Shown here in pieces: positions 4,535 to 7,429 of a stretch of 26,918 nt of DNA. This stretch comes from a virus. The position numbers and the translations under genes were made by a program. The notes under the pieces were generated by a model. The model made no database searches. It had not been told where the DNA came from and saw only the letters and a list, made by a program, of their open reading frames with translations. How positions within the stretch are numbered: the first letter of the stretch is position 1; each line of letters starts with the position of its first letter. The stretch covers positions 1 to 26,918 of IMG/VR virus record IMGVR_UViG_3300042879_001768; one strand, written 5' to 3'.

Positions 4535-5257
4535 TTATGTGGTACAAGCGCAATCAAATGCAGGTGTTACTTCGTTTAGGTCTTTGTCTTTGAATAGGTT
4601 GTTTTGTGCTATGGATAGGAGTTGTTTGATAGTTACACCGGCAAGGTAAGTTCTGCCACCTGCATTTTCCTCATCTTTTACCCACGGCTCTGCAAGTTCG
4701 GGATAAGATGCTAATATATTTATAATGGCATTCTTTCCCTTCATAAAGCATAAAGTACAATTACCAAGTATTGAAGGTATTTCTAAATTGTATGGTTTAT
4801 TTGCCCAGTATTCATTAATTATTGGCTTTGTTATGCCATCATAATATAATGGATATTTATTATAAACTTTTTTAAACTTTTGTACTGCTCTGCTAACTCT
4901 TAATTGTTCATCTGCCCTAAACCCTATGAAATTATTAAACTCTCTAATACCTATTGAGCGCAGATACCTTTTGCAAGTATTTACTTTTAATTCAATAGTG
5001 CAGATTCTTTTCATTCTATTAGGAATGGCTTTATATTTTTTTTCTAATAGTAATGTATCAAATGGTGTTGCTGAATCTTTGTAAGATATTTTGATTACAG
5101 GTATATTTTCATGTGCTTCAAAGTCATGAATAAACTTATATGTTTTCGGATGCTCTCTGCCTGTATCGGTAAAAATCACTAAATCACCCGGCTTCCAATA
5201 ATGGATAACCATGTATGCAGATGTCTTGCCACCGCTAAAGTTAAATATGTTAATCAT
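4535..5257 (-). CDS. PAPS-reductase-like N-type ATP pyrophosphatase
   Basis: The 240-aa product opens with the PP-loop FSGGKTSAYM (S8-M16), a variant of SGGxDS, followed by VIFTDTGREHPKTYKF (about 27-42). This is the pattern of phage phosphoadenosine-phosphosulfate-reductase-family proteins. A Cys pair NCTLCFMKGK (about 166-175), an earlier RICTIELKVNTCKRYL and a CACTT tail suggest metal or thiol chemistry. The family adenylates substrates; proposed phage roles include DNA or tRNA modification and sulfur handling, and none can be chosen here. The gene is clearly more A+T-rich than its neighbours (4741-4800 has 15/60 G+C), so it may be a recent arrival. It ends 11 bases before the primase start. 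Confidence 0.8.
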   Translation of the reverse strand: MINIFNFSGGKTSAYMVIHYWKPGDLVIFTDTGREHPKTYKFIHDFEAHENIPVIKISYKDSATPFDTLLLEKKYKAIPNRMKRICTIELKVNTCKRYLRSIGIREFNNFIGFRADEQLRVSRAVQKFKKVYNKYPLYYDGITKPIINEYWANKPYNLEIPSILGNCTLCFMKGKNAIINILASYPELAEPWVKDEENAGGRTYLAGVTIKQLLSIAQNNLFKDKDLNEVTPAFDCACTT

Positions 5258-5300: not shown

Positions 5301-5738
5301 TTAATGACTTGTAATCTGGTCGTAAATGTAGAAAAACTCTATCGGATTGCGAACAAAGAAATAGAATCCTCCTGCTGCTTGTTCCCGTGCTTGTTCGGCT
5401 AATTGTTCCTTTGATGGTCGGTCTTTGCCTACTTTTATTTCCAGTTTTACCGATTTGCCCCGTATAGTTGCCATTATATCAGCCGTTCCTTTGCGTGTTG
5501 TGGATGGGATGTATCTGCCCTGCAGGTATCTTCCTGCACTACTTACCCTTGTTGCATTGCCTCCAGTCCAGTTGATGTAGTTGATGCAGAATTGAGTTAG
5601 TCCGTTTGCCGTTTCCACTTTTGGGAAGTTAGCCGGCCCTGTGTAGAATCCATCCTTTACAACAGATGGTGTATGCTTTAAGGTATGCTGATAGTGGGCG
5701 GAGTTATAGCGGATCCGCCATTCGGGATGTTGTTTCAT
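5301..5738 (-). CDS. VRR-NUC / PD-(D/E)XK-type nuclease
   Basis: In this 145-aa protein the segment KGTADIMATIRGKSVKLEIK (about residues 83-102) gives the PD-(D/E)XK core: D87 and E100-I-K102. DRPSKEQ and QAREQAAGGFYFFVRN follow, as in VRR-NUC nucleases and Holliday-junction-resolvase-like phage proteins. It is expected to cut branched or structured DNA during recombination or packaging. Length fits a single VRR-NUC domain with a 60-aa N-terminal extension. The ATG overlaps the end of the methyltransferase frame by 35 bases; no better start exists downstream. A bulged inverted repeat (5279-5307) covers its stop codon. Confidence 0.8.
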   Translation of the reverse strand: MKQHPEWRIRYNSAHYQHTLKHTPSVVKDGFYTGPANFPKVETANGLTQFCINYINWTGGNATRVSSAGRYLQGRYIPSTTRKGTADIMATIRGKSVKLEIKVGKDRPSKEQLAEQAREQAAGGFYFFVRNPIEFFYIYDQITSH

Positions 5739-5780
5739 ATTGCTGAATTGCCTTAAATATCATTAAAACGACTTGCGGTA

Positions 5781-6884
5781 CTATTGCGTTTCCGGCGGCC
5801 TTGATTGATTCGTTTCTCCACTTTGAAAAGGTAATTCCGTCCAATCGGGAGGAAAGCCCATCATTTCGAGAACAAATCGGGGATTGAGTTGGGAAGTTTT
5901 GCCAATCTCTTGGGTTTTCATTAGTTCTCCTATCAACGATGAACGATTTAATTGACTTTCCGGAAATGTTGCATTTTTGCCCTCGTTTACTGTCGGTGTC
6001 GGCAGCATCCCCTGTTTGTGAAGAAGTGCCATTTTCCCCGATAACATATTCGCAGTTCCGTCCGACCTCAACTGACCCTTCCAGTCCCCTGCTATCGGTG
6101 TCGGCAACATCCCCATACTCATTGCCCGTGTGAGCGTTACCGAGTGCATACTCCCCTCCTTTACCTGGCTGCTTTTCATCGTTGCCGTTGCGTTGGTTGA
6201 GTCCATTGCCGTTGGGGTGGGGAGTAGTTGATTCCTCGCCATTTGTTTCAATGGCATTTGTAAATTCACTCCCTTGTCTGCCCATTTCTGCTTGTCCTCC
6301 TCCCATTTTTCCGGAGTCCTCGCACTGTTGTAATCGAACGCCGTTGGGGTGGGGAGTAGGCCTGGCATTTTCCCATTGCTCCAATCTTTTATCTGTCTTG
6401 ATAATGTTATTGTACGATTCTTTTCCTTTGCTTCCTCGCAAGTCATATTGCCCAACCCCCTTTTCCCTGCATCCCCTTCGCAAGTTGGAGTGCGCAACAA
6501 ACCAAACCCTATCTCTTCGGTGGGGAGCGTTGACGGATACAGCTGGCAATACATACGGCCATACTTCGTACCCCTCAGCTTCCAAGTCAGCTTGCACCTC
6601 GTGGAATACCAACCCTCCTGACCAATTAACAAGGCCGAGAACATTTTCGCCCACAACCCAACGTGGTTGAATTTCTCTAATTGCTCGCAGCATTTCCGGC
6701 CAGAGATGTCGTTCATCTTCTTTGCCTTTTCGTTTTCCGGCTGATGAGTACGGTTGGCATAGTTACGGGAAGCCACCCGTGAGGATGATGTCATCATTCC
6801 TCCAGTGGCTTCCGAATCGTTTTGAAAGTTCAGTATTAATTGTTTCATAAGTAAGTGTGTGAATGTCTTTGTGGTGATATGCAT
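5781..6884 (-). CDS. Overlapping LPTPT-repeat protein encoded in another frame of the methyltransferase gene
   Basis: A 367-codon frame runs inside the methyltransferase gene on the same strand, displaced by one base. The protein has a structured-looking part (MNDISGRKCCEQLEKF from residue 57, then GWYSTRCKLTWKLRGTKY and LYPSTLPTEEIGFGLL). Five TPT units follow (LLRTPTC, LLPTPTAFDYN, LLPTPTAMDST, MLPTPIAGDWKG, MLPTPTVNEG), and it ends with LNPRFVLEMMGFPPDWTEL. I recall this layout as a recurring hypothetical or methylase-associated phage protein type, but cannot search to confirm. Start candidates are 6884, 6848 (MKQLILNF) and 6716 (MNDISG). The six bases that stop the methyltransferase frame only add Asn-Tyr here. 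It may be a real dual-coded gene, or a shadow frame kept open by the codon use of the methyltransferase. Confidence 0.45.
   Translation of the reverse strand: MHITTKTFTHLLMKQLILNFQNDSEATGGMMTSSSRVASRNYANRTHQPENEKAKKMNDISGRKCCEQLEKFNHVGLWAKMFSALLIGQEGWYSTRCKLTWKLRGTKYGRMYCQLYPSTLPTEEIGFGLLRTPTCEGDAGKRGLGNMTCEEAKEKNRTITLSRQIKDWSNGKMPGLLPTPTAFDYNSARTPEKWEEDKQKWADKGVNLQMPLKQMARNQLLPTPTAMDSTNATATMKSSQVKEGSMHSVTLTRAMSMGMLPTPIAGDWKGQLRSDGTANMLSGKMALLHKQGMLPTPTVNEGKNATFPESQLNRSSLIGELMKTQEIGKTSQLNPRFVLEMMGFPPDWTELPFQSGETNQSRPPETQ
5994..6359. repeat. Direct repeats in the methyltransferase target-recognition region
   Basis: GCCGTTGGGGTGGGGAGTAG is repeated exactly at 6208-6227 and 6340-6359 (plus strand). 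A second unit, CGGTGTCGGCA(G/A)CATCCCC, occurs at 5994-6012 and 6096-6114. The copies encode HPNG and ADTDS-type units in the methyltransferase frame and LPTPT units in the overlapping frame. Confidence 0.8.
6760..6765 (-). other. Six-base TAACTA insertion splitting the Pro-Cys pair of methyltransferase motif IV
   Basis: Reading the minus strand, GGC TTC CCG is followed by TAA CTA and then TGC CAA CCG TAC. Removing TAA CTA restores GGFPCQPY, the invariant motif IV. The length is a multiple of three, so both this frame and the overlapping frame stay in register. Confidence 0.75.
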
Positions 6885-7000
6885 TAGGCCAATAGTATTC
6901 TAAAACTTTGTTACCGAAATCATTTATTTCGCAGGATACAATGTTTTTCCAACCCATCCATTCCGAGGCAAGATCAAAGCCACCCACTCCACTAAATAAA

Positions 7001-7429
7001 CTAATGTGGAGCATCTTTTTTGTTTTTTGTGTATTGATTATGATGTGGTGAATATAACCGAGTGTGTTCTGATTTAGATAAGCATTCTAAATTTTCAATT
7101 CTATTGTCATCCTTTTTACCATTGATGTGGTGAATATCAAATCCAATAGGTATTTTACCTCTTTCATTTTCCCATACATACCTGTGCATTAACTTTCTTT
7201 CATTAGTTGTTAAACTATAATAACCATTTGCTCTTAAAGTAAATTTCTTATTATCATAGAATTGCACTGGTTGAAAGTTAGGTCCTCTTAACTTAAATCC
7301 TCTTTGCTTAAATGCCTTAAAAACACATTGCCTTGAAACTCCTATTTTTTTAGCAACTTGTTCTAAAGACAATCCAAACAAATAATCTTGATAAGCATCA
7401 TCATAAATTAGTTTTTTTCTTTGTCCCAT
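7001..7429 (-). CDS. HNH endonuclease with N-terminal helix-turn-helix
   Basis: The 142-aa protein has a helix-turn-helix segment, GLSLEQVAKKIGVSRQCVFKAFKQRGF (about 19-45), then a HNH core with MHRYVWENERGKIP (81-94), DIHHINGKKDDNRIENLECLSKSEH (99-122) and the His/Asn metal ligands H100-H101, N109, N113 and H122. This is the architecture of free-standing phage homing-type HNH endonucleases, which cut DNA near their own insertion site. It is markedly A+T-rich (7201-7260 has 13/60 G+C) against the adjoining methyltransferase, suggesting it moved in recently. Its stop overlaps the methyltransferase start by 14 bases. A dyad with a -7-like TACATTTG lies just upstream. Confidence 0.85.
   Translation of the reverse strand: MGQRKKLIYDDAYQDYLFGLSLEQVAKKIGVSRQCVFKAFKQRGFKLRGPNFQPVQFYDNKKFTLRANGYYSLTTNERKLMHRYVWENERGKIPIGFDIHHINGKKDDNRIENLECLSKSEHTRLYSPHHNQYTKNKKDAPH

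Follow-up and report, generated by a model that had tools for sequence, protein, structure and literature searches.

Two reading frames at a phage methyltransferase locus

The DNA analyzed in this study (hereafter, the window) is the whole of a 26,918-nucleotide stretch from a virus, IMG/VR record IMGVR_UViG_3300042879_001768. Its minus strand carries a C5-methyltransferase gene, here called frame A, within which a second long reading frame, frame B, is nested in a phase one base downstream of that of frame A (Table 1). Frame A begins at 7014, and both of its halves match PF00145 and dcm; the C-terminal part carries motifs VI, VIII and X, the last as GNAIVPQ at 5793-5773. Frame B, read from the ATG at 6884 to the TAG at 5781, is matched by the PHROG family phrog_1008, and searches of Pfam and NCBIfam returned no match for it. 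Its conserved block at 6519..6611 overlaps the motifs of A up to VIII, and the 3′ arm of the RNA hairpin at 6768..6813 consists of the GGFP codons of frame A.

Table 1. Coordinates of the features at the methyltransferase locus in the window
Feature	Position	Strand	Basis
Frame B ORF, 367 codons, probable partner protein	5781..6884	minus	phrog_1008 E = 1e-27, openness, substitution pattern
Likely start of frame B, ATG (MKQLILNF...)	6848-6846	minus	
QLILNF near the N-terminus of B, resembling a beta-sliding-clamp-binding motif (QxxLF / QxxLxF)	6825..6842	minus	
Conserved block of B, WYSTRCKLTWK...QLYPSTLPT, predicted beta hairpin	6519..6611	minus	pLDDT 83-93 in compact relative
LLPTPTA-type repeats of B, four TPT and one TPI	5991..6500	minus	
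LNPRFVLEMMGFPPDWTEL, motif-IX-like block at the C-terminus of B	5832..5888	minus	B-like substitution pattern
N-terminal C5-methyltransferase part of frame A, 83 codons as far as GGFP (motif IV)	6766..7014	minus	PF00145
RNA hairpin directly 5′ of the stop, stem GGAAGCCACU/GGUGGCUUCC	6768..6813	minus	z = -5.97
CCG, presumed take-off codon (P-site tRNA-Pro)	6766..6768	minus	sequence
TAA in frame A that separates P from C in motif IV and opens the 6-nt insert	6763..6765	minus	
CTA, presumed landing codon, which would re-pair with tRNA-Pro via a middle G-U	6760..6762	minus	
C-terminal part of frame A, starting at TGC (6759-6757) for the catalytic Cys	5704..6759	minus	
HTH-HNH endonuclease gene, 14-base overlap with the start of frame A	7001..7429	minus	PF13392 E = 2e-18

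The original prediction described two open frames that share about 900 bases. The shared length is sound, since frame A, when read from an ATG at 6693 (6693-5704, 329 aa), overlaps frame B over 913 bases. The openness holds for B and fails for A, in which a TAA at 6765-6763, absent from that account, separates GGFP from CQPYS just before the catalytic Cys codon. The sequence blocks quoted for B are present; of the five TPT units ascribed to it, four are TPT and one is TPI.

Frame B as a second protein

The openness of frame B was assessed in 80 viral loci picked by frame A alone, 76 of which had a readable A, against permutations of A's synonymous codons over the region from motif IV to motif X; the loci had been ranked by their likeness to the dual-coded query, and the set is therefore no random sample of all methyltransferases. 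Across the 76 loci, the +1 frame contained 43 stops against 315.6 expected, and 41 of these were B's own terminal stop, which leaves two internal ones; the +2 frame of the same loci contained 1229 stops against 1333 expected. Taken individually, 73 of the 76 loci showed +1 openness at P ≤ 0.05.

Both frames also bear the mark of selection. Among 87 independent pairs, the rates of change at the three codon positions were 0.126/0.084/0.389 for the N-terminal part of A, which is single-coded, and 0.194/0.096/0.219 for the A/B overlap, and change at the four-fold sites of A fell from 0.486 in the single-coded N-terminus to 0.194 in the overlap; these rates therefore indicate purifying selection on both frames. 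Just before motif X, in the MMGFP block, the order of substitution is B-like, with A1 changing fastest.

QxxLF is a bacterial sliding-clamp-binding pattern. Close to the beginning of B it is present in 116 of 193 loci, where synonymous shuffles of A lead one to expect 14.1 (maximum 27); for a looser clamp-like form, the figures are 165 of 193 loci against 50 expected. The motif sits at two different offsets to A, and the copy in the window, QLILNF, is of the QxxLxF form. Second chains of actinophages carry QMDLF at yet another place. We infer from these patterns that B may bind the clamp.

These findings bear on the possibility, raised with the original prediction, that annotation pipelines repeatedly pick up a conserved shadow frame, open only through the sequence or codon use of A. 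Classical methyltransferase controls, which have no open B, are themselves mildly depleted of +1 stops (253 against 331.5 expected), so that the shuffles slightly overestimate the expected number; yet two internal stops against some 316 expected, the constraint on A's synonymous sites, the fact that the C-terminal half of B shares the enzyme's frame in loci with a closed A, and the two offsets of QxxLF make the shadow frame hardly tenable. Judged by its sequence, frame B is, to near certainty, a conserved dual-coded second protein. The first alternative of the original prediction, that many phages dual-code a second protein within the methyltransferase gene, is thereby borne out, and for a very large number of phages: the stops in B lie far below the rate set by A in A-preserving simulations, the codon rates reveal purifying selection of B's own, and its C-terminal half has homologues without an overlapping A frame in actinophages and Brevibacillus.

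A tblastn search with B retrieved 72 phage records. In phages of Bacteroides, Porphyromonas, Paenibacillus, Lactobacillus and Erwinia, B always lies in the +1 frame of the methyltransferase and is open to MG(F/Y)PxxW, and this arrangement recurs in Escherichia phage Bas71, Klebsiella phage KlebP_265 and Microcystis phage Mae-JY24; the methyltransferase of Clostridioides phage phiC2, when examined, had no such open +1 frame. Among bacterial genomes, 62 of 80 B-selected loci were dual by a simple pattern, and these belong to Firmicutes, Proteobacteria, Chlorobiota and other phyla. Paenibacillus phage Diva (KP296791) has frame B annotated as 'g49 internal gene', and this entry and phrog_1008 represent the same frame, annotated as hypothetical protein or DNA methyltransferase, found without an assigned function or a test of dual coding. 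A weak literature search, confined to papers available without subscription, found no published account of the nested frame.

Frame B and the missing motif IX

Classical enzymes of the phiC2 type carry motif IX in frame (11 of 21 by a strict pattern), whereas the same pattern detected classical motif IX in none of 301 dual A frames; these frames do not have the classical single-chain arrangement, in which motif IX lies in frame with motifs I-VIII and X. Frame B ends in LNPxFVExMMGFPxxWTxL, at the position where motif IX belongs, and the MMGFPxxW block is colinear with motif X in actinophages. By profile comparison, the C-terminal part of B is homologous to the LPTPT...WMMGWP region of the actinophage enzymes (99.1%, 1e-18). 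That B-like region is fused in frame behind motif VIII in 21 actinophage loci; in other actinophages, it lies together with motif X on a second chain, and A ends after motif VIII. Similarly, in a Brevibacillus locus (L307), A stops after motif VIII and B continues into an A-type motif X tail. These natural fusions and exchanges point to B as the second chain of a two-chain C5-methyltransferase, a role that the original prediction had not proposed and that we consider highly probable.

Profile and structure comparisons with known enzymes gave less. The profile of B itself yielded nothing useful or significant against classical motif IX or classical methyltransferases, and a search of B against the PDB gave no match; the B-like tail of actinophages aligned with classical IX-X profiles in a colinear but weak manner (E 0.22). 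The AlphaFold2 model of a compact B alone (89 relatives) reached a pLDDT of 61 and matched no PDB fold, which would not be surprising for a chain dependent on its partner. The model of the actinophage fusion matched HhaI (E 3e-13), but the alignment of about 163 columns shows the catalytic domain and not the folding of the B part, and the LPTPT region is of low confidence in this fused model. The middle region of A is long and variable in both frames.

Alternatively, B could have a function of its own, such as replisome binding or anti-restriction, and overlap the enzyme without being its subunit. The clamp-like N-terminus of B would suit such independence, as would the internal start codon, equipped with a Shine-Dalgarno site, that B has in Paenibacillus phage Diva and in C72C1. 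Nevertheless, the C-terminal module of B is fused to, or substitutes for, the C-terminus of the enzyme in actinophages and Brevibacillus, B appears where A is without motif IX, and M.EcoHK31I offers a precedent with motif IX on a small second polypeptide (PMC3404938); we therefore regard a separate role as unlikely.

In the actinophage loci L007, L442 and L447, the enzyme has the C-terminal part of B fused to it, and the N-terminal part persists as a separate open overlapping frame. In L353 (Streptomyces phage Darolandstone), the motif IX-like block and motif X lie in frame A and the LPTPT repeats only in B, with frame A arginine-rich in between.

Two known enzymes invite comparison. The small chain of M.EcoHK31I is reportedly nested, out of frame, within the coding sequence of the large chain (Lee, Kam and Shaw, 1995), and the nesting of the second chain would be a first point of likeness to the present locus. 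The large chain of that enzyme comprises motifs I-VIII and X and the small chain motif IX (PMC3404938), just as A here has motifs I-VIII and X and no motif IX; the likeness described is one of motif layout. Unlike M.EcoHK31I, the pair described here occurs in phages and bacterial genomes of many phyla. Its B chain is of greater length, contains LPTPT repeats and frequently has a clamp-like motif; in the window and related loci, a bypass-like element also splits motif IV of A. M.AquI is a split C5-methyltransferase whose second chain carries motifs IX-X (PMC3404938); it resembles the actinophage arrangement in having two chains, whereas motif X, on the small chain of M.AquI, is on A in the window. 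Dual coding across phyla would turn what was one restriction system's curiosity into a general design of phage methyltransferases and would explain many proteins filed as hypothetical.

The interrupted motif IV of frame A

Motif IV was uninterrupted in 241 of 247 loci, and the other six carried an in-frame insert of 6 or 9 nt in which the stop always came first. When sequences were scanned by pattern, with any codon allowed after the stop, the insert loci, including the window, came to 49 methyltransferase loci in 22 clusters, all with the order CCN-stop-(0 or 3 nt)-codon-TGC; locus counts are subject to shared ancestry, and we use cluster counts where possible. The take-off codon is CCG, CCA or CCT, and the stop (TAA, TAG or TAA-TGA) stands directly after it in the 49 loci, as CCN-UAA/UAG. 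The last codon before TGC is only ever CTA, CCA, CTG, CCT, CCG, TCA, CCC, TCG or CTT, that is, CCN, CTN or TCN in 22 of 22 clusters, and in many cases it is not identical to the take-off codon. It can pair with the take-off tRNA if G-U pairs are allowed: for a tRNA-Pro anticodon NGG with G-U at the first or second position, 12 of the 61 sense codons qualify, and the CTA of the window requires G-U at the middle position. If the ribosome moves 6 or 9 nt, leaving CCN for the landing codon, GGFPCQP is restored with zero extra residues.

On either side of the stop, changes at A-only positions number 110/54/355 and 72/52/154 per codon position within the window's cluster and 156/58/452 and 130/41/181 within another insert cluster, on the assumption that the members of a cluster inherited the insert together. 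From this position-3-rich change on both sides, A is judged to be still a working protein in the insert clusters. A clear B is missing in 12 of the 49 insert loci; dual coding and the insert are thus separable features. In one tandem pair of methyltransferase genes (L507:1-1650), the first has an open B and the second has the stop insert. Elsewhere (L011:309-2387, MT835926), an intein (CFDGDTLVLTSKG...VHN) occupies exactly the same P|C site of motif IV.

The insert is accompanied by RNA structure on its 5′ side, whereas structure on its 3′ side is the same as in the controls. The mean fold energy of the 60 nt before the stop was -25.8 kcal/mol in the insert loci against -9.7 in 414 others, and a minimum free energy below -18 was found in 45 of 49 against 19 of 414. 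Across 26 aligned hairpins, a set that left out a few loci whose hairpin could not be lined up, pairing was kept in 94.6% of pair cells, with compensatory pairs such as GC13/CG12 at one position and AU11/GC7/UA4/CG1 at another; the third, synonymous position of a Gly codon contributes one partner to each covarying pair. The covariation score was 0.283, against 0.134 in shuffled alignments (0/500) and at most 0.081 in slid ones, the slid control being biased towards the stem because members of this very set had been folded to find it. Less exposed to this bias is the comparison with the 414 other loci, in which an exact upstream complement of the seven bases GGNTTCC, which lie within the GGFP codons, occurred in 37 of 49 insert loci against 1 of 414.

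A gene resembling the HNH gene of the window lies just upstream in five of the six insert loci of the first survey and in 0 of 277 others. A search with the HNH protein found five loci at 66% identity or more. Each lies upstream of an insert of this kind, and in two of the five, both from one phage, the stop is TAG. By tblastn with both HNH forms as queries, which recovered real cases that an HTH pattern had missed, the gene was detected in 29 of 44 insert loci with enough upstream sequence, against 0 of 284 controls, and was undetected in the other 15. In five insert clusters, the HNH gene is nested inside the region of frame A itself.

This association would fit a view in which the stop renders A inactive, the insert represents a scar or a self-protective change beside a homing endonuclease, and only B or fragments of A matter. 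It would also fit that TAA is the usual terminator in the window (21 of 28 ORFs) and that no tRNA gene was found there, although the contig may be an incomplete genome, so that a suppressor tRNA could lie elsewhere. However, a scar needs neither frame-keeping, which every insert of the first survey shows, nor a restricted landing codon, a covarying hairpin or purifying selection on A-only positions on both sides within insert-sharing clusters; these features argue against the scar, and we consider inactivation of A distinctly improbable.

Still less probable, in our estimate, is readthrough of the stop by a near-cognate or suppressor tRNA, which would leave two or three extra residues in motif IV. 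The stops are indeed UAA or UAG, and a 5′ hairpin could stimulate recoding in general; the extra residues, however, would fall within a PCQ loop that hardly varies, some loci have the double stop UAA UGA, and the limitation of the second codon to CCN, CTN or TCN would be left unexplained. An assembly or sequencing error might be suspected in a single metagenomic contig such as the window, but the same architecture recurs in 49 loci and near-identical copies come from independent metagenomes (L336/L337, L138/L140), which makes an error scarcely credible. Two further candidates were rejected: a +1 frameshift from A into B at the stop, because tRNA-Pro on CCG-U or CCA-U cannot re-pair one base on, and reassignment of TAA, because TAA ends most genes in the window.

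Taken together, we think it very probable that the locus encodes a two-chain, dual-coded C5-methyltransferase with a stop bypass in A, a view drawn from sequence statistics: dual selection, motif complementarity, fusions, insert architecture, RNA covariation and continued selection on A. In the mechanism we propose, chain A would carry motifs I-VIII and X, and chain B, nested one base out of frame, would supply the motif-IX/target-recognition part missing from A; a putative clamp-binding tail, frequent on B, may tie methylation to the phage replisome. In the window and at least 21 other clusters, an HNH-associated insert of 6 or 9 nt places a stop in the middle of motif IV of A. With the hairpin abutting the take-off CCN and the stop in the A site, peptidyl-tRNA-Pro would let go, move 6 or 9 nt and re-pair with CCN, CTN or TCN, and translation would resume at the Cys codon to give full-length A with an exact GGFPCQP. 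The insert presumably also shields the site from the HNH endonuclease. Programmed stop-hopping or bypassing of this type, a miniature resembling T4 gene 60, is the likely route to full-length A. It is also likely that we are dealing with a natural in-frame stop-hop, kept or spread with HNH homing endonucleases, inside DNA that also codes for a further chain of the methyltransferase; the same 50 bases would then specify protein A, protein B and an RNA structure.

In T4 gene 60, a bypassed insert of 50 nt lies beside the mobA endonuclease gene and is thought to protect from cleavage (PMC5009743, PMC2988022). The A-site stop, the 5′ stem loop, the re-pairing landing codon and the linked 5′ HNH homing endonuclease are common to both systems (PMC5009743, PMC2988022). 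The present inserts differ in being 6 or 9 nt long instead of 50, in frame, presumably served by a Pro instead of a Gly tRNA that may land by G-U pairing, and spread over many phages, and their bypass is a prediction from sequence. In the synthetic stop-hops of Weiss et al. (1987), as cited in PMC5009743, matched codons flank a stop and 9 nt are decoded as one amino acid; the element described here differs in being natural and in having a conserved hairpin. Natural in-frame stop hopping was unknown as of 2016 according to a review (PMC5009743), and our own weak search of papers open to us without subscription found no published account of bypass in phages. If true, the element would be a compact natural recoding system with about 20 sequence variants, and its link to HNH genes would show how phage genes survive homing endonucleases.

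In five loci (L477, L487, L490, L497 and L499), an HTH-HNH endonuclease domain is located within the methyltransferase gene region itself, after motif III and before motif IV, immediately 5′ of the stop insert. A gene of the PAPS-reductase family is found near the dual methyltransferase in the window (4535..5257, minus strand) and also in L001, L002, L010 and L137, which include several unrelated phages.
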